A DNA stretch of 64,000 nucleotides from Blastococcus sp. TML/M2B (GTDB taxonomy: Bacteria; Actinomycetota; Actinomycetes; Mycobacteriales; Geodermatophilaceae), in NCBI RefSeq assembly GCF_016612865.1, contig NZ_JAENZZ010000002.1, forward strand, positions 1,612,001 to 1,676,000. The letters are read 5' to 3'. The translations under genes and the position numbers were made by a program. Positions 30,454 through 53,186 of this stretch are shown piece by piece. Position 1 is the stretch's first letter. The number at the start of each line of letters is the position of its first letter. The notes below the pieces were generated by a model that was given only the letters and a program-made list of their open reading frames with translations, had not been told where the DNA came from and did not search any database.

Positions 30454-32985
30454 TCAGCCGCGGACGAACAGCCGCCGGTGAGCGGCTCCCGGGGCCGCCG
30501 TCCGCACCCCGGTGCGGGCCAGCAGCCAGTTCTCCAATCGGTCGTCGGGCAGCGGCCGGCTGACCAGGAAGCCCTGGAGCTTGTCGCAGCCCATCTCGGT
30601 CAGCAGGTTGCGGGTCATGTCGTCCTCGACGCCCTCGGCGACCACGCGCAGGCCCAGGTTGTGGGCCAGCTCGATGATCGACCGGGCGATGAACGACTCG
30701 CCCTGGCTCGTGGACATCCCGAGCACGAAGGACTTGTCGATCTTGACCTCGTCGATCGGCAGCTGCCGGAGCTGGGACAGCGACGAGTAGCCGGTGCCGA
30801 AGTCGTCCATCGACAGCCGCAGCCCGAGGTCGTGCAGGTCGGCCAGCACGGTGCTGTCGCGCACCGAGTCGTCGACGACGCTGCCCTCGGTCAGCTCCAG
30901 GGTGAGCAGCTCGCCCGGGACGCCGTGGCGCTGGAGCGCGCCGCGCACGCGGGCGACCAGGTCTGGCTCGGTGAGGCAGTGCACCGAGAGGTTGACCGCG
31001 ACCGAGAGCGCGATGTCCTGGTCGAGCCAGCGGCGGCAGCGGGCCAGCGCGAGGTCGAGCACGTGGTCGGTGACCGCGCCGATCCGGCCGATCTGCTCGG
31101 CGAGGTGGATGAAGTCGTCGGGTGAGATCGCGCCGTACCGCGGGTGGGCCCAGCGGACGAGGGTCTCCACCGACACGATGTCGGAGGTCTGCGCGTCGAT
31201 GATCGGCTGGAAGACGACGCTGATCTGGCCGTCGGCCATCGCCTGCTCGATCTCGGTGCCCAGCTGCAGCCGGCGCAGGCTCTGCTGGTCGAGGACCGGG
31301 TGGTAGCTGGCCACGCCCCCGGAGTCCGCGGCGGCCAGCAGCGCGACGTCGGCCCGCTGCATGAGCGTGCCCGACTCGGTGCCGTGCACCGGGGCGGAGG
31401 CCACGCCGATGGTCAGCGTGACCTCGAGGTCCAGGCCCGCCACGCGGACGCGGGTGGCCGCCGCCTCGCGCAGCCGGCGCGCGGCGCGCTCGGTAGCGGC
31501 CAGGGACAGCCCGGGCAGGAGGACGGCGAACCGCTCGCTCTCCATCCGGGCCAGCAGCGCCTGCGGCGGCGCGTGCTCGCGCAGCAGCCCCGCGGTGACC
31601 TGCAGCAGCTCGTCGCTGGCGGCGTGCCCGAGGGTGTCGGTGACCTCCAGGTAGTTGCCGACCGCCGCGAGGATGAGCCCGGCCCGCCCGCCGGCCGGGT
31701 CGGCCGCGAGCAGCGCGTCGATCTCGGCGGCCAGCCGCTGCCGGTTGGGCAGCCCGGTCAGCCGGTCGTGGTCGGCGTCGTAGCGGATCTGGGTGAGCAG
31801 CTGCTGGTGGCGGATCGCGGCGTTGACGTGCGTGAGCATCGAGTCCAGCGCGGACCGGTCGCTGTCGGCGAAGGAGACGACGGTGCTGCGCCGGTCGCAC
31901 ACCTCCAGGTAGCCGGGCTCCCCGGCGGCGGTGGCCAGGGGTGCCGCCAGCAGCTCGGTGACGCCGCGGCGCGCCAGGCCCGCGGCCTGCTCCTCGTCCG
32001 CGTGCGCGAGGGTGATCAGCACCGGCCCGCCGGCGGCGGCCACCGCGCGGCGGAAGACGTCGTCCGGATCGCCCGGGCCGTCGTACCAGACCGCGTCGTC
32101 CTCGGCGGCGACGACCAGCTGCGGGGCCTCGTCCAGGTAGGGCGGCAGCCACAGGGCCACGCGCTCGGCGTTGAGCAGCTCCTGCACCGCGGCGACGATC
32201 TGGCGGGTGCCGGCCTCGTCCGGGGTGACCTGTTCGACCCGGCGGGCGAAGTCGTAGACCCGCTGGACGCTGTGCCCGCGGCGGGTGACCGCGCCGAACT
32301 GGCGGTAGAGCAGCGCGAGGACGACGAGCAGCGGCGCGAGCAGCAGCCAGGCCCAGCCGGTCACACCGATGAGCAGCAGAGCGGCGAGGCCGACGATGAC
32401 CGCCACCGGGCCGATCACGAACACGGGGATGAGCAGGCTCGCCCACAGCGAGCGGCCCGGGTGTCCCTGGGTGGTGATGATGGCGCCGGCCACGAGCACC
32501 GCGCCGAGCACGTCGGCGACGAGGATCGCCACCACGTAGGAGATCCAGCTGCCGGGCGAGGTCAGCTCGCCGACGGGCAGCACCGAGAGGACGGCGACGG
32601 CAGCGCAGACCTCCAGCACGGCGACGGCGACGGTGTAGATGCCCTGCGGTCGGGGGAACCGCTGCACCAGCAGGACGGCGGCGACGGCCACCGCTCTGGC
32701 GATGACCGCCCAGGCGCCGCCGACCTCGACGAGGGCGACCACGATGGCCAGCTCGCTCGCGGAGACGGACACGGCCTGGCGGCGGAACTCGACGTGCAGG
32801 TGGATGGACTCGGCCGCGAGCATCGCGAGGAAGACGACCGCGAGCGCGGGCAGCGAGACCGCGAGGGGCTGGGTCAGGAGCACGACCAGCATCACCGGCG
32901 CAGCCAGCAGCACCCCGAGCACGGCCACGGTCGAGGGCGCCCGGAAGGCCGGCCGGGGCGTGGCTCGGACGTCCTGCTCTGGCAT
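30454..32985 (-). CDS. Membrane-bound GGDEF/EAL protein with degenerate GGDEF
   Basis: An 843-residue cyclic-di-GMP protein. About seven hydrophobic segments fill residues 20-250. A GAF-like or linker region follows, then a GGDEF domain (DHDRLTGLPNRQRL at its start) and an EAL domain to near the C-terminus. The GGDEF signature is replaced by MESERF, so cyclase activity is unlikely. The EAL site is kept as ETL with the metal/substrate residues in NLSVH, LELTEG, MDDFGTGYSSL, VKIDKSF and VAEGVED, so phosphodiesterase activity is plausible. ATG 32985 (MPEQDV) is preferred to the TTG-led longer frame. The repeat-peptide gene at 33170-33253 is next upstream on the same strand. Confidence 0.88.
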   Translation of the reverse strand: MPEQDVRATPRPAFRAPSTVAVLGVLLAAPVMLVVLLTQPLAVSLPALAVVFLAMLAAESIHLHVEFRRQAVSVSASELAIVVALVEVGGAWAVIARAVAVAAVLLVQRFPRPQGIYTVAVAVLEVCAAVAVLSVLPVGELTSPGSWISYVVAILVADVLGAVLVAGAIITTQGHPGRSLWASLLIPVFVIGPVAVIVGLAALLLIGVTGWAWLLLAPLLVVLALLYRQFGAVTRRGHSVQRVYDFARRVEQVTPDEAGTRQIVAAVQELLNAERVALWLPPYLDEAPQLVVAAEDDAVWYDGPGDPDDVFRRAVAAAGGPVLITLAHADEEQAAGLARRGVTELLAAPLATAAGEPGYLEVCDRRSTVVSFADSDRSALDSMLTHVNAAIRHQQLLTQIRYDADHDRLTGLPNRQRLAAEIDALLAADPAGGRAGLILAAVGNYLEVTDTLGHAASDELLQVTAGLLREHAPPQALLARMESERFAVLLPGLSLAATERAARRLREAAATRVRVAGLDLEVTLTIGVASAPVHGTESGTLMQRADVALLAAADSGGVASYHPVLDQQSLRRLQLGTEIEQAMADGQISVVFQPIIDAQTSDIVSVETLVRWAHPRYGAISPDDFIHLAEQIGRIGAVTDHVLDLALARCRRWLDQDIALSVAVNLSVHCLTEPDLVARVRGALQRHGVPGELLTLELTEGSVVDDSVRDSTVLADLHDLGLRLSMDDFGTGYSSLSQLRQLPIDEVKIDKSFVLGMSTSQGESFIARSIIELAHNLGLRVVAEGVEDDMTRNLLTEMGCDKLQGFLVSRPLPDDRLENWLLARTGVRTAAPGAAHRRLFVRG

Positions 32986-33113
32986 GCGACCTGCATTCCG
33001 TGCCGGGGTAGATGGGCGCGCAGAGGCTAGCAACGGAGACGCCCCTCACACCCCGCTTCGGGTCGCGCCGCGACCCGAAAGGGTCACAGTCCGCGCCCGC
33101 CCCCCGGAAACGC

Positions 33114-33148
33114 CGCAGGGCAGCCGGTCGGCGACCGGCTGCCCTGCG
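33114..33148 (-). terminator. Hairpin between the RGLKWS peptide gene and the GGDEF/EAL gene
   Basis: A perfect 16-bp inverted repeat (33114-33129 and 33133-33148) with a three-base loop, 21 bases after the peptide stop codon. It should end the peptide transcript or let only part of it continue into the GGDEF/EAL gene. Confidence 0.8.
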
Positions 33149-33169
33149 GGAAGGACGAGAGGGGAGGTA

Positions 33170-33253
33170 TCAGGCCTCCCGGCTCCACTTCAGACCCCGG
33201 CTCCACTTGAGACCCCGGCTCCACTTGAGCCCGCGCTGCGTGTTGTTGCTCAT
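33170..33253 (-). CDS. 27-residue peptide with three RGLKWS repeats
   Basis: A very short gene with the marks of a real one. ATG at 33251-33253 has a consensus AGGAGG four bases ahead of the start, the stop is TGA (33170-33172), and a perfect terminator hairpin follows. The product reads MSNNTQ, then RGLKWS three times in tandem, then REA. It is strongly cationic (seven Arg/Lys, one Glu) with a Trp in every repeat. No signal peptide is present. The three 18-base units use different synonymous codons (for example CGC GGG CTC and CGG GGT CTG), which suggests the peptide is what is kept. I do not recognise the family. It could be a signalling, antimicrobial or modified peptide, or an RNA/protein-binding peptide; the only nearby candidate partner is the membrane EAL protein. 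Confidence 0.75.
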   Translation of the reverse strand: MSNNTQRGLKWSRGLKWSRGLKWSREA

Positions 33254-33389
33254 GACGCCTCCTGTTGTGGCATGACCGACTGCGGAATGCGGCAGGACTT
33301 ACGCGCGGGGGCAGAGCGTCGTTGGGTACGGACCGCGCTGCGGACATTGCTGCCCGTCACCCTTACGAGGCAAGCGTGGACGATCACGA

Positions 33390-33420
33390 CAGGGTGACGA
33401 TCTTGAGTGTCGTCACCCTG
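33390..33420. promoter_or_regulatory. Inverted repeat upstream of the peptide gene
   Basis: Perfect 11-base arms (33390-33400 and 33410-33420) around a nine-base spacer, 137 bases before the peptide start and 49 bases after the 680-residue gene. It may be that gene's terminator or an operator for the peptide. A smaller palindrome TTGGTCAACCAA lies at 33440-33451. Confidence 0.45.
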
Positions 33421-33469: not shown

Positions 33470-35512
33470 TCAGCGCGGTTCGCGGACCGCCTCGTCGCGC
33501 AGCAGCTCGCCCACCAGGTCCACCGTGATGTCGAGGACCTGGCCGATGCGGCCCGGAGCGCCCGGGAGGAGCTCGGTCGCCAGCCCGACGACGTCCACCG
33601 GCGGCGACTCGGGGGGCTCCGGCGTCCCGAGCAGCCGCGTGACCTGCGCGTACGCCGCGCCTGCCGCGAGGGAGCCGCCCGCCGAGCGCACCGCCCGGTC
33701 GGCCGGGATGTGCCGGGCGCGGTCCGGCGGCTCGTCCCAGGTGCCGTCCAGGTCCAGTCCCACAGCGGCAAGCGCGGCGAGCGGGCCCACCACCCGGCCG
33801 CCCACCGCGTCCAGCAGGTCGCCGCCGTGTGCGCGCTGCCCGGCCCGCTCCTGCGCGGCGAACCCCTCCAGGGCGTGCGTGAGACGCCGGCCGTACTCGC
33901 GGACGGCGGCGTACCCCGCGCCCACGACGCCCGCCGGGTCCGCCCCGTCCTCCCGGGGTGCCGCGGCCAGCTCCGCGACGGCGTCGGCCACCGCGCGGTC
34001 CAGCAGGCCGGCGGCGGCCCGGTCGGTGCCCAGGTAACCCAGCCCGCGCAGCAGGGTGCGGTCGTCACCCCCGCAGTCGGGGACGGCGAGCAGCGGGCCG
34101 GTCAGCACCGCGGGCCGCGCGGCCACCGCCTCCGCCAGGGTGGGGGCGAGGAGGGCCGCGGTCGCCGGGTCGACGGTCCAGGCACCGGGGTCGCCGTCGT
34201 CCCCCAGGCCGGTGGCCAGCGCCCGGAGTCCCGCGCGGACGGCGGTCGCCCCCGGCGCCTCGACCGCACGTCCGACCACCGCCACGAGCGCGGCGCCGTC
34301 GTCGTCCCACGGCCGCGCGAGCAGGTGGGACCAGGCCGGGGTGCTGCGGAGCAGGCCGGCCGCCGGCGCGGGGTCGTCGACGGCCGCCAGGCGGGCCAGC
34401 ACCTCCTGCAGCGGGTCGCCCGGCGGGGCCTCGCCCGGCTCGGGCCGGACGACGTCGACGATCCGCGCGCCACCCAGGGCCCGCTCGCGCGCGACGATCT
34501 GCCGCCCCCACTCGCGGACCGTGGCCGGCGGCGGGCCGGAGCGGGGGTCGCCGCGCCCGGCGGCCAGGACGACGCCCATGCCCAGGGCCACGAGGTCGCT
34601 GTCCAGCGTGTGGTGGTCACCGGGGTCGACGAGCCGGCGGTCGCGCACCTGCGCGACCGCGCGGGCATCGGCGGGCGAAACCGGGGCGCCCAGCGCCGCA
34701 GCCACCACGCGGGCCAGCGCGCTGCGGAAGGAGAGCCGCCCCTCCCCCAGCCGGCGGAGCACGTCGCGGAACCCGCCGGCGCCGAGCCCGACGAGCACCG
34801 CCGCGGCCACCGCGGGATCGCCCGCCCAGGGCAGCAGTTCCCGGGCGGCCGCCTCCCGCGCGGCGGGGTCCTCGTCCCCCAGCACGGCCGCCGCGAACGC
34901 GGCGCCGCGCTGCGCCAGCAGCAGCTCGTGCCAGCCGGGGAGGACCGCGGCGAGGTGCCGCCCGGCGTCCGCCGTGCCCCACCGCCCGCCGCCGCCGGTG
35001 ACCGCGCTGCACCCGGCGAGCACGGCCGCGGTCGCCGCGGCGTCCCGCTCGGCCTCCTCCCGGATCGCCGCCGCCACCCGGCGGCGGGCGGCCTCCGCGC
35101 TGCGCAGCTCCTCGAGGGCGCCGGAGACGTCCGCGCCGGTCCCGACGTCCTGGACACCACCCAGGCGCGCGGCCGCGGCCCCGAAGTCCTCCTCCTGCGC
35201 GGCGCGCAGCCGGGCGAGGCGGCCGCGGGCATCGGCCAGCAGCTCCCCGTGCAGGGCGAGCCGCCGGCCCGCCTCGGCCAGCGCCGCGGCGGCCTCGCCT
35301 CCCAGGTCTCCCACCCGCAGCACGCGGGCGGTCGCCGCGTCGGCGTCCCGCCCGGTCCATCCCGGTACGCGTCCGGCGTCGTCCCGCACCCGGTCCCCGA
35401 GCCCCGCGAGCAGGGCTCCGGCCCGGTCCAGCCGCCCCGCCAGCTCGCCGAACGCCCGCGGGTCACCCGGCGGCGGGTCGAGGGGCACCGGGTCGGGGAT
35501 CAGGGCGGTCAC
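33470..35512 (-). CDS. Large WXG100-like/ESX-type secreted protein, function unknown
   Basis: A 680-residue soluble protein. The first 120 residues are helical with a WTGRDADAATAR turn in the position of the WXG motif, followed by Ala/Arg-rich coiled-coil helices, as in ESX-associated substrates. The rest is Ala/Leu/Asp-rich and helical with no signal peptide, membrane span or recognisable catalytic motif. The start GTG 35512 overlaps the stop of the small gene before it (GTGA), so the two products are probably partners. No toxin domain or ESX machinery gene is in the window. Confidence 0.6.
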   Translation of the reverse strand: MTALIPDPVPLDPPPGDPRAFGELAGRLDRAGALLAGLGDRVRDDAGRVPGWTGRDADAATARVLRVGDLGGEAAAALAEAGRRLALHGELLADARGRLARLRAAQEEDFGAAAARLGGVQDVGTGADVSGALEELRSAEAARRRVAAAIREEAERDAAATAAVLAGCSAVTGGGGRWGTADAGRHLAAVLPGWHELLLAQRGAAFAAAVLGDEDPAAREAAARELLPWAGDPAVAAAVLVGLGAGGFRDVLRRLGEGRLSFRSALARVVAAALGAPVSPADARAVAQVRDRRLVDPGDHHTLDSDLVALGMGVVLAAGRGDPRSGPPPATVREWGRQIVARERALGGARIVDVVRPEPGEAPPGDPLQEVLARLAAVDDPAPAAGLLRSTPAWSHLLARPWDDDGAALVAVVGRAVEAPGATAVRAGLRALATGLGDDGDPGAWTVDPATAALLAPTLAEAVAARPAVLTGPLLAVPDCGGDDRTLLRGLGYLGTDRAAAGLLDRAVADAVAELAAAPREDGADPAGVVGAGYAAVREYGRRLTHALEGFAAQERAGQRAHGGDLLDAVGGRVVGPLAALAAVGLDLDGTWDEPPDRARHIPADRAVRSAGGSLAAGAAYAQVTRLLGTPEPPESPPVDVVGLATELLPGAPGRIGQVLDITVDLVGELLRDEAVREPR

Positions 35513-36419: not shown

Positions 36420-36429
36420 TACCGGAGCG

Positions 36430-36511
36430 TGGCGGGTGAAGGATTCGAACCTTCGAAGGCTAAGCCGACGGATTTACAGTCCGCTCCCATTGGCCACTCG
36501 GGCAACCCGCC
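36430..36511 (-). tRNA. tRNA-Tyr (anticodon GTA)
   Basis: An 82-base class II tRNA on the minus strand with acceptor GGCGGGT/ACCCGCC, anticodon loop CTGTAAA, a long variable arm and T arm GGTTCGAATCC. It is not the integration site of the adjacent mobile element; that lies beyond yajQ. Confidence 0.95.
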
Positions 36512-36596
36512 GTGCGGTGGTACCGGAGCAGAGTACAAGACTGTGGTGGCGGAGCTCGGAGCCCCGGGCCGCCACCGTCCGACGAGGGGAGTTCCC

Positions 36597-37088
36597 ATGG
36601 CCGACGCGTCCTTCGACGTGGTCAGCAAGGTCGACCGGCAGGAGGTCGACAACGCCCTGAACCAGGCCGCCAAGGAGCTGTCGCAGCGCTTCGACTTCCG
36701 GGGCACGAACGCGACGATCGCCTGGGCCGGCGAGGAGGGCGTCGCGCTGCAGGCCGACACCGAGGAGCGGGTCTCGGCCGCGCTCGAGGTGTTCAAGGAG
36801 AAGCTGATCAAGCGGAACATCTCGCTCAAGGTGCTCGACGCCGACGAGCCGCAGTCCTCCGGGAAGATCTACAAGATCTCCGCGCGGATCAAGCAGGGCA
36901 TCGAGTCCGACGTCGCCAAGAAGATCTCCAAGCTGATCCGCGACGAGGGCCCCAAGGGCGTGCAGGCGCAGATCCAGGGCGACCAGCTCCGGGTGAGCGG
37001 CAAGAAGCGCGACGACCTGCAGGCGGTGCAGCAGCTGCTCCGCGGCGCCGACCTCGACGTCGCGCTGCAGTTCGACAACTACCGCTGA
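36597..37088 (+). CDS. yajQ: YajQ family cyclic-di-GMP/nucleotide-binding protein
   Basis: A 163-residue YajQ (DUF520) protein. It begins [20 protein letters not shown] and has the family signatures [27 protein letters not shown] and [20 protein letters not shown], ending LQFDNYR. Some YajQ proteins bind cyclic di-GMP or tRNA; which ligand applies here is not known. GAGGGGAG precedes ATG 36597. The mobile element is inserted exactly at its 3' end. The last 16 bases, including the stop, form the left repeat, so the protein is unchanged. Confidence 0.95.
37073..37088. other. attL core: left 16-bp direct repeat
   Basis: The bases CGACAACTACCGCTGA at the very end of yajQ (last five codons and stop) recur exactly at 53187-53202. 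The integrase gene starts just inside this copy. Confidence 0.88.
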
Positions 37089-37118
37089 TCGTCCGCGTTT
37101 CCGCTGCTCAGCGGGTCG

Positions 37119-38237
37119 TCACAGTCCCTTGGTCCGCAGAGAGTCCGCAGAATCGCCCAGCGCGGCGGCCATGAGGTCGCCCGCTGCGGCGCGCGTGCGA
37201 TCCTCGGCGGTGGGCCAGAGGTGGGAGTAGACGCCGAGCGTGATCGTCGCCGAGGAGTGCCCGAGCGCCCGCTGCACGGTCACCACATCGCAGCCTGATG
37301 CGATGAGCCCGCTCGCGTAGAAGTGCCGCAGGTCGTGCAGCGTGTACCCGTCGAGCCCGGTCACCTTGCGGATTTGCCGCCACTGGTGCCCCGCGGAGTT
37401 GCGGTTCAGAGGTTGCCCGGCGTTCGTGAACAGCCAGTCGCCTCGCTGGACCCCTGCCCGCTCTACGTGCTTCGCCAGAAGCGCCATCAGGTCGGCTGGG
37501 GCGTAGACCACTCGCTCGGACCCGAACTTGGGCGCTACCGGCTGGGTCGTCGCGCTGTTCTCACCCTGCAGCTGGCGGCGAACGGAGATGGTCCGGCGCA
37601 GGAAATCGACGTCCTCCAGCCGCAGTCCGGCCGCCTCCCCCAGCCGTAGCCCGGCGAAGGCACACACCGCGATGAACGGCTGGAACCACTCCGGCGCGGC
37701 GCTGAGCGTGCGCCCCACGTCGTCGGCAGCGGGGATGGTCATCGACGCTGACGCCCTGCGTGTCCTCGGCAGGGGCACGCCGGCCGATGGGTCGGTCTTG
37801 ATGATGCGGTCGACGACCGCGGCCCGCATCGCCATGTGGACGTAGTTGTAGCGCGTCCGGATGGTGCTGGGCGCGAGTCCGGTCTTGCGGCCACGTGCAG
37901 GTTGCGACATGGCCTTGACCCACTGCTGCACGTGGGACGGGCGGATCTGGCGCATCGGCACGTCGGCGAAGGTCACCGAGCTGGCCGCCTGCTGAGCGGC
38001 AAGCGTCGTCCCGCGCTCCCACACCTGCCTGGCCGACCACTGCGCGAACCAAGCCTTGAAGGTGATCTTCCCGGCGGCGGGGTCGACGTAGTCGCCGGTG
38101 ACCATCGCCGCGGTGACCTCGTCCAGCCACCGCTGGGCGTCGACCTTCCTCTTGAAGTGCCGGGCGTGCTCCTTGCCGTTCTCGTCCCGGTACCGCGGCC
38201 GAAAGGTCCCGTCGGGTCTCTTCGCGATCGACGCCAC
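37119..38237 (-). CDS. int: Tyrosine site-specific integrase
   Basis: A 372-residue phage-type recombinase. An AP2-like arm-binding region (RPRYRDENGKEHARHFKRK) comes first, then a SAM-like core-binding domain near residues 60-165 and the catalytic domain. The catalytic set is visible: Arg in AGLRLGEAAGLRLED, His-x-x-Arg in HDLRHFYASGL, His in LGHSSATITLGVY and the nucleophile Tyr in YSHLWP. It reads toward attL and stops 30 bases from it, the usual position for an element integrase. The last codons contain two of the octamer repeats. Complete and probably active. Confidence 0.95.
   Translation of the reverse strand: MASIAKRPDGTFRPRYRDENGKEHARHFKRKVDAQRWLDEVTAAMVTGDYVDPAAGKITFKAWFAQWSARQVWERGTTLAAQQAASSVTFADVPMRQIRPSHVQQWVKAMSQPARGRKTGLAPSTIRTRYNYVHMAMRAAVVDRIIKTDPSAGVPLPRTRRASASMTIPAADDVGRTLSAAPEWFQPFIAVCAFAGLRLGEAAGLRLEDVDFLRRTISVRRQLQGENSATTQPVAPKFGSERVVYAPADLMALLAKHVERAGVQRGDWLFTNAGQPLNRNSAGHQWRQIRKVTGLDGYTLHDLRHFYASGLIASGCDVVTVQRALGHSSATITLGVYSHLWPTAEDRTRAAAGDLMAAALGDSADSLRTKGL
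37132..37150. repeat. Left-end phased repeats, candidate integrase arm sites
   Basis: Two copies of GTCCGCAG at 37132-37139 and 37143-37150, 11 bases apart, inside the last codons of the integrase gene. The same octamer recurs four times at the right end (53040-53079). Confidence 0.5.
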
Positions 38238-38415
38238 CGTTCATCCCCTTCCATCTCGGTGAGCTCTTGGGACCTCGCCGCCCACCGCAGTGTGGGCTTT
38301 GCTACTGACTGGAGAACTGTCCTCCTGATCAAGGTCTTGCTGTCCGGCTTTCGCTGCGCCTGCCGGGCACAGCGCAGACGTCCGCGTCCCTGGCAGGGCG
38401 CCCGCGGGTAGGCCT

Positions 38416-41400
38416 TCATCGCCCTATGCCTGGACCAGCGGGGGTGCGCCGGGTGAGCGCCGCAAGGTCCTCGGGCCGCGGGAGGCGAACACCAGGTTCG
38501 GGGGCGGTCAGCAGAGTGGGGGCCGATCGGTGTGGGGTCGGGTCTGCGTGCTGGAGTGCGCGCCAAGTGTCCCGCTCGTGGACGAGGCGTTCGGCCGGCT
38601 GGGCGAGGAGAGCTGGCTCGGCCGTCAGTCGCGCGATGCGGCCGCGGACGACGGCCAGTTCTGCTCGGGCGGCGGTGATGGCCCGGTCGGTGTCGGCCAA
38701 CCCCTCCGCCGGGTCGGGGGTCCAGGCGAGGGGTCCGAAGCGGGCGAGCCGGTCCTCGTGCTGACGGCGGGCGTCGGCGAGCGCGGCCGCGGCGTGCCGG
38801 TGGGTCTCCTGGGCGGTGGCTGCGGCCGCGCGCAACTGAGTGTGCTCCGGGTGGGCGTGTTCGGCGTGGTGGCGGGCGTAGGAGTCGAAGGCAGTCCACA
38901 GCCGCGGTCGGTCGTCGGCCCGGTCAGCCAGGCGCGCGATCTGCTGCGGGTCGGTGGGGATGGTCGGCAGGTAGGGGCGCCAGGCGTCCGCCCAGTCGAC
39001 CAGCTGCTCGCCGGCCCGGTTCACCGCCGCCCGCCGCAGTCGGAGCCGGCCGGGACCGTCGAGGACGACCTGCGCGGCGTGACGGGCGGCGTCACGCCCG
39101 GTGTCCCAGCTGGCGAGCAGGGTGTCGCGGATCCGGTCGGTCTCGGCGGTGACGACCGCGCGGCTGGCGTCGGCCCGCGCCGTGGCGTGGCGGGCGTCGA
39201 TTCCCGTCCGCTCGTACCGGGCTTCCAGCACGGTGAGCTGGTCGCCGTGGGCGGACTCGAGCGCGACGATCTCGCGCAGCGCGTCGCGGCGCGGCAGGTC
39301 GGAGGCGAGCCGATCCAGGCAGCGTCGCTCGGCCGTCCACGCCGAGTGCAGGTCGGCCAGCGCCTGCTCCAGCGGTCGGGGCGTGGCGTAGCGGGCGGCC
39401 TCGGCGGCGGCCAGCCGGGCTGCGTGCGCGGGACCGAGGTCGGCGCGGTCGCGGGCGAAGACCGCGAGCCACTGCTCCCGCGCCTGCGCGGGGTCGGCCG
39501 CGACGAGGTGGGCGGTGTTGGCCTCCCTACCGCGGGTCATCCCGACGTATGCCGCCGCCGCGCCGGTGTCCTCGCCGACCACCAGGTGCGCGGCGGTCAC
39601 CGTGTCGCCTTGGGTGCCGTGCGCGGTGGTCGCGTAGGCCAGCTCCACGTGCGCGGTGACGTAGTCCGCGGGCAGCACCCGCGCCCCCGTCCCGGCCGGG
39701 GGAACGGCGGGGGTGACAGAGCCGGACACACCGCCGGCGGGGGTGACATGCGGTGTGCCGTCGGGTGTGACCAGCAGCCCGCCGCGCCGGCCGACCGCGG
39801 TGACGACCCAGAGGTCCCGGTTGGCCACGTCGAGGTCGCGGTCGTTGCGGCGGGTCGCGATCCGGTCCCCGACGCCGATCCGCTCCCCGGCCCCGGTGAC
39901 CACAGCGCGTCGGTCGTCGACCCGGCCCTGGGTGACCAGTCGGTCCCGGACGGCGGCATTGAGGGAGGCGGCCTGCTCGCGCGTCTCGACCACCACGGCC
40001 ACGCGCTCCCCGGCGGTGTAGCCGTCGGCCGCGGCGGCGGCGAGCGCATCCCGCAGCGCCTGCGCGTCAGGGTGCAGCCGGATCTGCCCGCGGCCCAGGA
40101 GCGCGTCGAACACCGTCCCGGGGTTGGTGCCGGCGCGCATCGCGAGGGTCAGCTCGGCGTAGTCGGTGTCCGGGATCGTGGCGCCTGTGGCGTCGGTGCG
40201 GCCGAAGCGGTGCACCCCGACCAGGGTCAGGTGTTCGGCCGGGTCCACCTGGGCCGCGGCGAGGTCGAGGACGCCACCGCGACCGACCGCCGGCAGCTGA
40301 TGCCGGTCACCGAGCAGGGCCAGGTGCACCCGACACTCGTCGGCGATCGTCAGCAGGGCCCGGGCGGTGTCCTGATCCAGCATGCCCGCCTCGTCCACGA
40401 CCAGGAGGTCGCCGGCCCGCAGCCGCGCCCCGTTCGTGGGCCCGGCGTAGACACCTCCCGTAGTCGGACAGAGATCCCCGATGCCGAGCCGGGCCCAGGC
40501 GCCGTCGTCATTCCAGCGCCAGCCGTACTCGAAGGCCAGCCGGGCCGCCGAGCCGGCGACCGCGCCGACCTCCGCGGCAACGACCTTGGCCGCCTTCAGT
40601 GTCGGGGTGACGACCACCAGCCTGCGCCCCTGCCCGGCGATCACATTCTTGGTGGCGGCGAGGGTGGTGGTCTTGCCGGCGCCGGCCGCGCCCTCGACCA
40701 CGACCAGGCGCCGCCAGCCGGCCAGCGCGGCGACCGCCGTGGCCTGTCCGGGATCCAGCCGCGCGGCACCGGCTGCGAGGTCGACCGGCGGTGTCGGGTC
40801 GGGGCCAGGGGCGCCGGCCGGGCGCTCGGTGGCGCGGGCGGCGAGGCGGGCGGTGAGGTCGGCCTCGACGGCAAGCACCGGTCCTGAGGTCCAGGCCCGG
40901 ATGTGCTCGGGCACCCCACCGCGGTCCAGCAGCGGCACGCAGCGGTCCATTGTGCGGGCGGTGAGGTCCTCGGCGAGCTCGATGCGCACCGCCGGGTCGG
41001 TGACGATCCCGGCGGCGGCGAGCAGCTGCTCGACCTCCCCGCGCACGTCGGCGGCGTTCCACGCCGAGCGGGCCGCGGCCAGCCGGGCCAGCACCCGCTG
41101 CGCCGCCTGCTCCCGGTCCAGGCCACCGACCGGGGTGGGGGTCAGGCCGACAGGAGCATTCCGGTCGCGGTAGCCCAGGGCGACCAGCTCGGCCGCCCAC
41201 CGTGCCGTGAGGTCCTCCCCGGGCTGGGGCAGCACCTTGTCCGGGCGGCCCGCTGCCCACGCCCGCGCGTCCCAGGAGCGGCGCAACGCCGGGCCGGGGG
41301 ATTCGCCAGGATGCGCCGCGGTCCATTCCCGTTCGTACCCATCGATGTTCCGGGCGATCTGCGCCGTCCGCACGCTGAAGGCGCCCACGAAATCCGCCAG

Positions 41401-42099
41401 CTGCCGTATCTCCCCATCACCATTCACCGCATATCCGTGAGCGGCGAGCGCAGCCCGGAATTGCGGGTCGCAGGCGACCGCAGCGTGCCCGATACCGTTG
41501 ATCGCGGCGAGGGAATCGCGGACACCGACGGTGTGCAGGCCGCGCCATTTCCCGGCCGCGAACACCCGGGCGTTGATCTGCAGGTGCAGATGGCGGTGCG
41601 GATCCCCGGCCCGCGACGTGTAGTGCGCCACCGTCACCGCCTCGGCCACCTCGACCGGCACCTGCACCTGCCCGCCGCGCGGACCGACCCGGGTGGTGGC
41701 GTGCTGCCCCAGCCAGCCGATGATCTGCGCGGCCGCCCGAGCCTGGGCCGCGTCATACGCCGTCGCGATGTCCGGATGCAGCGCGGCCGCCAGCGACCAC
41801 GTCTTCGGACCGTTGACCACCACCTCGACGAAACGAACCGCATGCCCGTCGCCGCGCAGCTGCCCCCGCGGCTCGCCGGTGCCCGGGTCACAGCCGGCCA
41901 CCCACGTCTCGTAGGCGTCACCGGTTAACGGCGCCAGCTCGGCCACACGACCGCCGGTGACGCTGAACCGACGGGCGACGCCGGCGCCCTCGGTGAGGTA
42001 GTAGTCATCAGCCCGACCCCGGTCGGCCTCCACGTACTGTCGGGCAGCCGCCGGCGAGCCGGCGTAGATCTTCATCCCGCCATGCATTGTCAACGGCAC
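38416..42099 (-). CDS. MobF-family conjugative relaxase/helicase (TraA/TrwC-like)
   Basis: A protein of up to 1227 residues. The N-terminal relaxase domain has tyrosines in DDYYLTEG, the catalytic KTWSLAAAL strand and the metal-binding histidines in DPHRHLHLQINARVF. A RecD/TraI-type helicase follows, with Walker A EGAAGAGKTTT near residue 470, Walker B LLVVDEAGML and the late motif YATTAHGTQGDTV. The C-terminal 350 residues are charged and coiled-coil. It should nick at oriT and unwind the transferred strand. GTG 42099 is the longest start; ATG 42087 (MHGGMKIY) and ATG 42075 are alternatives. The gene appears intact. Confidence 0.93.
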   Translation of the reverse strand: MPLTMHGGMKIYAGSPAAARQYVEADRGRADDYYLTEGAGVARRFSVTGGRVAELAPLTGDAYETWVAGCDPGTGEPRGQLRGDGHAVRFVEVVVNGPKTWSLAAALHPDIATAYDAAQARAAAQIIGWLGQHATTRVGPRGGQVQVPVEVAEAVTVAHYTSRAGDPHRHLHLQINARVFAAGKWRGLHTVGVRDSLAAINGIGHAAVACDPQFRAALAAHGYAVNGDGEIRQLADFVGAFSVRTAQIARNIDGYEREWTAAHPGESPGPALRRSWDARAWAAGRPDKVLPQPGEDLTARWAAELVALGYRDRNAPVGLTPTPVGGLDREQAAQRVLARLAAARSAWNAADVRGEVEQLLAAAGIVTDPAVRIELAEDLTARTMDRCVPLLDRGGVPEHIRAWTSGPVLAVEADLTARLAARATERPAGAPGPDPTPPVDLAAGAARLDPGQATAVAALAGWRRLVVVEGAAGAGKTTTLAATKNVIAGQGRRLVVVTPTLKAAKVVAAEVGAVAGSAARLAFEYGWRWNDDGAWARLGIGDLCPTTGGVYAGPTNGARLRAGDLLVVDEAGMLDQDTARALLTIADECRVHLALLGDRHQLPAVGRGGVLDLAAAQVDPAEHLTLVGVHRFGRTDATGATIPDTDYAELTLAMRAGTNPGTVFDALLGRGQIRLHPDAQALRDALAAAAADGYTAGERVAVVVETREQAASLNAAVRDRLVTQGRVDDRRAVVTGAGERIGVGDRIATRRNDRDLDVANRDLWVVTAVGRRGGLLVTPDGTPHVTPAGGVSGSVTPAVPPAGTGARVLPADYVTAHVELAYATTAHGTQGDTVTAAHLVVGEDTGAAAAYVGMTRGREANTAHLVAADPAQAREQWLAVFARDRADLGPAHAARLAAAEAARYATPRPLEQALADLHSAWTAERRCLDRLASDLPRRDALREIVALESAHGDQLTVLEARYERTGIDARHATARADASRAVVTAETDRIRDTLLASWDTGRDAARHAAQVVLDGPGRLRLRRAAVNRAGEQLVDWADAWRPYLPTIPTDPQQIARLADRADDRPRLWTAFDSYARHHAEHAHPEHTQLRAAAATAQETHRHAAAALADARRQHEDRLARFGPLAWTPDPAEGLADTDRAITAARAELAVVRGRIARLTAEPALLAQPAERLVHERDTWRALQHADPTPHRSAPTLLTAPEPGVRLPRPEDLAALTRRTPAGPGIGR

Positions 42100-42183: not shown

Positions 42184-42241
42184 TGCCGCATTTTGATAGC
42201 TCCATGGACGTCTGCCGTATTTTGCTAGCTCCTTGGACGTC
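42184..42241. repeat. Two 29-bp imperfect direct repeats, AT-richer than surroundings
   Basis: The units start TGCCGCATTTTGATAGCTCC (42184) and TGCCGTATTTTGCTAGCTCC (42213) and each ends GGACGTC(T). They lie 85 bases upstream of the relaxase gene in the 415-base gene-free gap 42100-42514 and contain TTTTG runs rare in this genome. They may be part of oriT, an iteron-like site or an operator of the relaxase gene. Nothing else is identified in this gap. Confidence 0.6.
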
Positions 42242-42514
42242 TACTAAGCGTCGATGGCCGTCGCATGGCGAATCAAGTGTTGACGAGCAATATGCTTAAT
42301 GGCTTCGTCCGTCACGGGCGCTGTGCTGTGCAGGACCGATTGCGGCGCAGCCAGGACCGACGTCGACTGGGCTGTCACCCCCCAGGCAGCGGCCGCCGTC
42401 GACGTGATCGGCGAGGGACGTGCGCAGTCCGCCGGTCCTGGCGTCGGGCAGCACGGCCAGCCGCCAGCGCCCCAGACCTGGGGACGGCAGGGGTCCGAAG
42501 CTGACCAGCCTTCT

Positions 42515-53039: not shown

Positions 53040-53079
53040 GTCCGCAGCCAGTCCGCAAAAGTCCGCAGAAAGTCCGCAA
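53040..53079. repeat. Right-end phased repeats, candidate integrase arm sites
   Basis: Four copies of GTCCGCAG/GTCCGCAA at 53040, 53051, 53061 and 53072, spaced 10-11 bases (one helical turn). They lie 108-163 bases inside the right direct repeat. The gap 52951-53293 holds these, the vapBC operator, attR and the htpX terminator. Confidence 0.6.
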
Positions 53080-53186
53080 ACCGGCCAACCACGAGCACCC
53101 TTGATCAACAACACTCGACCATAAAGCCGCAGGTCAGCCCCGAGTTTCATCGATCACCAGCGGTAGCCGACCGTCGCAGATCAGTA

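Follow-up and report, generated by a model that had tools for sequence, protein, structure and literature searches.

A conserved small gene of tandem hexapeptide units next to a GGDEF-EAL gene in Geodermatophilaceae

Small precursors that carry several copies of one short peptide have been described before. Multi-core RiPP precursors contain tandem identical cores, and they need a leader and a maturase. The propeptides of the RRNPPA-type systems of Bacillota (partners of Rap, NprR, PlcR and AimR) hold up to six copies of the mature pheromone (PMC9765709), and the tandem copies mature extracellularly (PMC11343458). In fungi, KEX2-processed repeat proteins and alpha-pheromone precursors have identical or nearly identical repeats in each precursor, as reported in two papers (PMC7329392, PMC6339444).

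The locus described here resembles the RRNPPA propeptides in having several copies of a short peptide in a small precursor; 80 of the 82 arrays hold two to five, and release of the units is putative. The RRNPPA propeptides have a secretion signal and adjacent TPR receptors, whereas neither was recognised here, and the gene is actinobacterial with a c-di-GMP enzyme as its neighbour. The fungal precursors are secreted, eukaryotic and cut by KEX2, whereas our peptide is bacterial, lacks a secretion signal and has a single Arg at the unit borders. The tandem identical cores are a feature shared with multi-core RiPPs, but a leader of that kind is lacking and no maturase was recognised in the neighbourhood. 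The flanking genes belong to the YajQ and GGDEF-EAL c-di-GMP proteins, neither of which the peptide resembles. The left-handed beta-helix hexapeptide repeat, [LIV]-[GAED]-x2-[STAV]-x, was rejected as a relative, as the unit R-x-x-[K/R]-W-x does not fit it and the peptide had no match in Pfam, NCBIfam or PHROGs.

The gene was found in a 64,000-nt stretch of Blastococcus sp. TML/M2B DNA (the window), with the following features.

33170..33253, minus strand: peptide gene, MSNNTQ followed by three RGLKWS, REA and TGA (translation; homologues in 82 distinct arrays)
33182..33235, minus strand: three 18-nt units (33235-33218, 33217-33200, 33199-33182), identical in protein
33258..33263, minus strand: Shine-Dalgarno AGGAGG, read in the sequence, with a similar motif at other loci
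33113..33149, minus strand: 17-bp hairpin with a perfect stem after the peptide stop, probable terminator
33302..33338, minus strand: conserved element GCGCGGTCCGTAC..ACGACGCTCTGCCCCCGCGCG, probably 5' UTR (alignments)
33344..33373, minus strand: probable promoter, TTGCCT (33373-33368), 18-nt spacer and CAATGT (33349-33344), suggested by alignment conservation
33390..33420, minus strand: inverted repeat CAGGGTGACGA..TCGTCACCCTG lying upstream of the probable promoter, a candidate operator

Read on the minus strand from the ATG at 33253, the interval 33253-33170 translates to MSNNTQRGLKWSRGLKWSRGLKWSREA and a stop, and the plus-strand frame over the same interval is unrelated to the peptide. 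The AGGAGG, ATG, SNNTQ leader, three RGLKWS units and stop that a preliminary description had listed without naming a strand are all readable there. Its perfect 16-bp terminator stands as a perfect hairpin after the stop, with a stem of 17 bp and no T run behind it, because of which a strict terminator scan found none at this site. The units differ only synonymously, at Arg (CGC/CGG), Gly (GGG/GGT) and Leu (CTC/CTG) codons, and the repeat has a TRF score of 97, joint highest among the 104 rows in the window. Other repeats in the window include a 29-bp one in two copies (42184-42242) and a 21-bp one in two copies (53040-53080).

The signals around the gene were compared with those of its relatives. 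A Shine-Dalgarno-like motif precedes all 82 array starts, partly by construction because the extraction of many arrays required such a motif. Of 81 loci, 64 have a best fold within 130 nt past the stop that is more stable than the 5% point of shuffles (median -33.7 vs -23.1 kcal/mol); the comparison with shuffles was used since a cut-off of -18 kcal/mol is passed by 94% of them. The stem sequences of these hairpins vary widely between loci. A strict consensus scan found no promoter upstream of the peptide in the window, and a looser pattern matched 82 of 82 loci and is too loose to carry weight. The GT.ACGACA within the inverted repeat of the window is kept in the alignment of relatives. Clusters of TGTGGACA/TTGTCCAC, which we take to be similar to DnaA boxes, occur upstream of the peptide in several loci of one clade, L036, L038 and L040 among them, and are absent from the window. 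Further upstream of the promoter lies a minus-strand frame of 680 codons (33470-35512) that has no match in Pfam or NCBIfam and whose relatives, the frame itself counted, occur in 5 of 28 loci. With its own promoter, 5' element, ORF and hairpin, the peptide transcript is probably short and monocistronic, transcription and translation being predicted from the DNA.

To collect related arrays, the 27-residue peptide was searched against 60 relatives, 44 of which gave matches at E 1 or better, and tandem arrays were readable in 28 genomes including that of the window, all from Geodermatophilaceae. A profile (A1) matched 69 of 298 genomes of the order at E 0.01, 39 of them from this family; one of the 39 (G207) was matched at a wrong site, and its real array was located via the EAL gene. 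At E 0.0001, a scan of 396 genomes from the phylum matched only the genome of the window and two repeats judged spurious. A GC-rich repeat read from the 30 other-family genomes of the order scan at E ≤0.01 (L160, PTRPSRP-like on the other strand) was likewise judged spurious, as were the GC-rich repeats L030, L031 and L179 from the peptide and phylum searches. In total, 82 distinct arrays built of R-x-x-[K/R]-W-x units were assembled, 34 from peptide searches, 27 from the upstream element and 21 from the EAL gene.

The preliminary description had named absence of the frame from relatives that keep the flanking genes as a ground for dropping the gene, and the opposite was found. All 23 family genomes reached by way of the EAL gene, which the profile had missed or scored weakly, have a peptide frame upstream of it, namely 18 of 18 in one set plus G009, G025, G028, G031 and G035; in G031 the EAL gene is kept and the upstream frame has a single unit. 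Outside the 23, G027 is without an EAL match, and the matches of G030 and G032 are near contig ends. A pattern scan found no such array at distant EAL homologues in other families (L116-L126, L129-L131), and GGDEF-EAL paralogues within the same family (L127, L128) have none. Two contigs of the metagenome-assembled genome RYN_169 (L089, which ends within its third unit, and L107) each have the locus with different units, reflecting either mixed strains or two copies.

The peptide gene is a family of Geodermatophilaceae, and neither the peptide nor its upstream element is in Pfam, NCBIfam, PHROGs or Rfam; the earlier statement that the repeat belongs to no known family holds in every library searched. 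Plasmids and phages gave no match to the window peptide, and PDB sequences gave one match only, at E 9.8. In the literature searched, no text was found with RGLKWS, RGVKWT, RGVKWG, RGIKWS, RGFKWG or RGTKWT, and among the matches listed no title or opening of an abstract described such a peptide.

The arrays share a simple composition. They start with ATG (77) or GTG (5) and have three (38 arrays), two (20), four (19) or five (3) units, while 2 were read as one; imperfect units were left uncounted in L094 (the third, with an extra residue), G080 (the first) and L089 (the third, cut off). The RGLKWS of the window is one of 55 different majority units. All 55 have Trp at position 5, 52 have Arg at position 1 (the other three are a register shift in one clade) and 53 have Lys or Arg at position 4, with G, S, T, N or A at position 6 and 13 different residues at position 3. 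The peptides are 18-42 residues long and, in line with the cationic character noted earlier, have a net charge of +3 to +9 (median +7). Their leaders of 3-20 residues consist mostly of S, T, A, Q and N, the shortest being in G026, where five units follow only three residues including Met. Judged by composition, no leader has a hydrophobic export or secretion signal, again as first described.

Within arrays, the units are kept the same at the protein level. Neighbouring units had 254 synonymous and 9 amino-acid differences (165 pairs in 82 arrays; pN/pS 0.011), with three of the nine due to a register shift of the parser, and the first set of 55 arrays, before additions, had 187 and 5; conservation of the amino-acid sequence, suggested at the start from the synonymous codons of a single array, thus extends to the whole collection. 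At positions 3, 4 and 6, which vary between species, 37, 25 and 39 synonymous differences were counted within arrays against one amino-acid difference each. Only 7 of 80 arrays are non-uniform, three by register shift and four with an odd first or last unit, and the units are identical in DNA in 6 of the 80 arrays having two or more. Switching between the two Ser codon families without leaving Ser is impossible by one base change, and both families occur inside one array at 3 of 41 uniform Ser positions. As slippage alone would erase synonymous differences, yet uniformity in DNA is confined to 6 of 80 arrays, mixed arrays appear to be selected against.

Between species, the units change. Within arrays we counted 0.069 amino-acid differences per unit pair at a synonymous fraction of 0.33 (275 pairs), versus 0.71 per unit at 0.35 between near species (23 non-overlapping pairs with EAL identity >0.8), which is about tenfold at similar synonymous divergence (77 of the 82 arrays entered these comparisons). 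The excess comes from 9 pairs with different units, because the other 14 of the 23 share theirs, and in each of the nine listed species pairs with EAL identity >0.93 the two species share their unit. On the EAL tree (69 rows), at least 47 unit changes were placed, with 27 at position 3, 21 at position 6 and 14 each at positions 2 and 4, often one position at a time (for example, RGIRWS, RGIKWS, RGLKWS), and copy number changed 19 times. Codon similarity was barely higher for the same slot (0.39) than for other slots (0.36; 849 pairs), indicating weak positional homology.

Downstream of the peptide lies a gene for a membrane GGDEF-EAL protein, with a promoter-like sequence ahead of it.

30454..32985, minus strand: 843-aa membrane GGDEF-EAL protein, counted from this ATG (Pfam, NCBIfam, alignment A2, AlphaFold, Foldseek)
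33024..33032, minus strand: TGCTAGCCT, extended -10-like, just upstream of the EAL gene, candidate promoter (downstream-flank alignment)

In the window this gene is 184 nt downstream of the peptide on the same strand. The tie to a same-strand GGDEF/EAL gene, first seen here alone, recurs in 80 of 80 testable loci at 117-278 nt from the stop; for 21 the linkage is by construction, and the 59 found independently of the EAL gene are all linked. That the peptide gene is conserved, is under selection at the protein level and is tied to the EAL gene is firm. The protein has an S-component-like membrane domain (1-250) followed by GAF, GGDEF without the signature (replaced; consensus MEGEQF) and EAL, and that of relative G022 is 93% identical to it. 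In alignment A2, E607, N665, E697, D727, D728, K748, E784 and Q804 of the EAL domain, to which we presumptively assign the individual catalytic roles, are invariant in 52 of 52 proteins. The neighbour has the catalytic residues of a c-di-GMP phosphodiesterase, and this activity is predicted. The EAL tree and the partner tests used the 69 of 80 EAL proteins with 820 aa or longer, and A2 and A4 used 52 of the 69.

The N-terminal 250 residues had no Pfam family at a meaningful level. AlphaFold modelled them with a pLDDT of 85.8 and a pTM of 0.83 (77.0 and 0.40 for the whole protein), and the nearest Foldseek matches were ECF S-components (RibU, FolT) and metal transporters. Nine of the ten best matches had a probability of 0.97-1.00, but with E-values of 0.06 or worse the likeness to S-components is one of fold only.

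The peptide is bracketed by the EAL gene and a YajQ-like gene, the latter being upstream in 28 of 28 loci compared; the one in the window is assigned to the YajQ family of c-di-GMP-binding proteins (208.8 bits vs a cut-off of 146). Within about 8 kb in these 28 loci, gene clusters, each named from one or a few representatives, included a Tad-like pilus-assembly protein (25 loci), an M48 protease (15) and downstream MaoC dehydratases (26 and 23), and L33 is also a common neighbour. Among the conserved genes scanned in this range, which were a part of all the genes, no maturase was recognised, nor was an exporter or a TPR receptor among the common neighbours. Elsewhere in the window, the interval 36429-42099 brings together tRNA-Tyr, an integrase of phage type (minus strand, 37119-38237) and a relaxase/helicase of TrwC type (minus strand, 38416-42099), probably an integrative conjugative element inserted at the tRNA-Tyr.

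The upstream element is more strongly conserved than the peptide, which the preliminary description had not reported, just as it had not placed RGLKWS among other units. The alignments show it almost invariant between loci and ending about 50 nt ahead of the start codon, with its core GCTCTGnCCCCGC present in 79 of 82 loci. An exact-match scan of 84,980 species genomes with a degenerate pattern found 49 stretches, two of them from one metagenome-assembled genome, and all 49 had a tandem peptide ORF starting 45-56 nt downstream. The pattern thus matched only this type of locus, and diverged forms (for example, in other genera) escape it. The matching records are labelled Blastococcus, Geodermatophilus or Geodermatophilaceae, with one exception flagged UNVERIFIED_ORG Bacillus sp. 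AZ43. No Rfam family reached the gathering score for the element, and a lax threshold gave weak matches far below such scores. We consider it a conserved sequence and not a structure, because RNAalifold found short pairing only (79 of 82 loci in the fold set, 40 of them in alignment A3) and single folds disagree with one another. Antitermination through pairing of an upstream CTGCCCC with a terminator arm was rejected by eye, as the arms vary between loci and the element is constant.

To seek a relationship between the units and the EAL protein, we compared where substitutions fall in 33 independent species pairs. Residues 61-245 took a share of 0.45 of EAL substitutions in the 20 pairs with a changed unit and 0.32 in the 13 unchanged pairs, which had means of 155 and 56 substitutions, respectively. 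With log divergence as a covariate and pairs with <20 substitutions excluded, this share is higher the more unit positions have changed (p 0.0015 by permutation; p 0.035 when coded as changed or not), each p value being one of eight tests and uncorrected. The N-terminus and GAF had no effect, and the catalytic half had the opposite sign (p 0.0011 and 0.054). An earlier windowed distance correlation of unit and EAL, which is not tree-aware, was marginal (0.206 vs a null 95% of 0.186). We treat the correlation as a lead, because divergence and clade rates (a slow catalytic half) confound it and the tests are uncorrected; the EAL membrane domain is plausible as the partner of the units.

Among the readings of these data, a ligand whose copies all fit one co-changing partner best explains the identity of the units, and several others have to be set against it. 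The peptide could act inside the cell as a multivalent binder, its Arg/Trp/Lys units contacting the ribosome, nucleic acid or a protein encoded at an unlinked site, with the EAL gene only as a constant neighbour. Arg-x-x-Lys-Trp would suit nucleic acid binding chemically, and the positive charge, the Ser/Thr/Ala/Gln/Asn-rich leader and the lack of a signal sequence agree with such a role, yet binding by charge and stacking has no need of all-Lys or all-Arg arrays such as position 4 displays, and the EAL linkage is unbroken. The upstream element is not a co-changing partner either, because it hardly changes while the units do, and on balance we find an intracellular binder somewhat doubtful. 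We hold it unlikely that proteases release the identical short peptides as a secreted pheromone, a signal between cells of one species that the EAL protein or some other receptor would perceive. Uniformity within arrays and difference between lineages fit a signal, and the propeptides of Bacillota (PMC9765709, PMC11343458) offer a precedent for several copies; against this, no hydrophobic export signal was seen, no exporter was recognised among the conserved neighbours, which include an M48 protease gene in 15 of 28 loci, and the species pairs above 0.93 EAL identity each share their unit, a slow divergence for a pherotype. For the pheromone reading, export is the main gap.

Neutral concerted evolution, in which slippage homogenises the units while only Arg and Trp are of importance and the other residues drift, would account for the tandem 18-nt repeats, the variable copy number, the weak positional homology and the units often shared by near species. 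It fits poorly with synonymous differences that persist in most arrays when amino-acid differences are almost absent, and with the mixed Ser codon families, and is in our estimate improbable. Even less probable is a multi-core RiPP precursor with Trp crosslinks made by unlinked enzymes. Such precursors resemble this one in identical tandem cores and variation between species, but the leaders go down to three residues and no maturase was recognised among the conserved neighbours; of the interpretation first offered, the conserved peptide gene and its EAL tie stand, and the streptide-type modified precursor is set aside on these grounds. The least probable is a leader peptide that regulates the EAL gene by attenuation, for which the layout, a small ORF that repeats Trp and Arg codons and then a hairpin ahead of a gene, would be as expected. 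The conserved extended -10-like sequence between hairpin and EAL gene speaks against it, the widely differing stems leave no fixed antiterminator, and the uniformity of positions 3 and 6 would go unexplained.

The explanation we favour, tentatively and at somewhat less than even chances, is a multi-copy peptide ligand in which all units fit one co-changing partner, most plausibly the adjacent membrane phosphodiesterase. A short transcript would give a small, cationic peptide that opens with a flexible stretch rich in Ser, Thr, Asn and Gln and continues with mostly 2-5 copies of R-x-x-[K/R]-W-x, in which Arg and Trp would be the common anchor and positions 2, 3, 4 and 6 a lineage-specific key. 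Since every copy has to match one and the same partner, the copies would stay identical, and the key would change with that partner. That partner may be the c-di-GMP phosphodiesterase, contacted through its N-terminal membrane domain, and the peptide, whole or cut into units, may tune c-di-GMP turnover. We infer the ligand role, the partner, the c-di-GMP effect and the site of action (inside the cell or after release) from these comparisons. A point against the ligand is that turnover by slippage also homogenises units, and an outward-facing pocket would need an unrecognised export route, as no secretion signal or exporter was seen. It is possible, with rather lower confidence, that the peptide is a leaderless, multi-copy, lineage-coded hexapeptide signal, which a c-di-GMP phosphodiesterase would read through its fused S-component-like membrane domain. 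The locus would then be a peptide-to-second-messenger recognition system, known to date from Geodermatophilaceae alone and controlled by a new conserved 5' element.

An easily overlooked gene of 18-42 residues thus has a clean signature of selection at the level of its unit: identical among the copies of one cell, distinct from lineage to lineage, and drifting at synonymous sites. If the units are not a ligand of the phosphodiesterase, the need for two to five identical copies of a short motif still demands an explanation. If they are, the locus would feed a peptide signal into the c-di-GMP signalling of a family of actinobacteria, with 55 natural variants that make its specificity testable.
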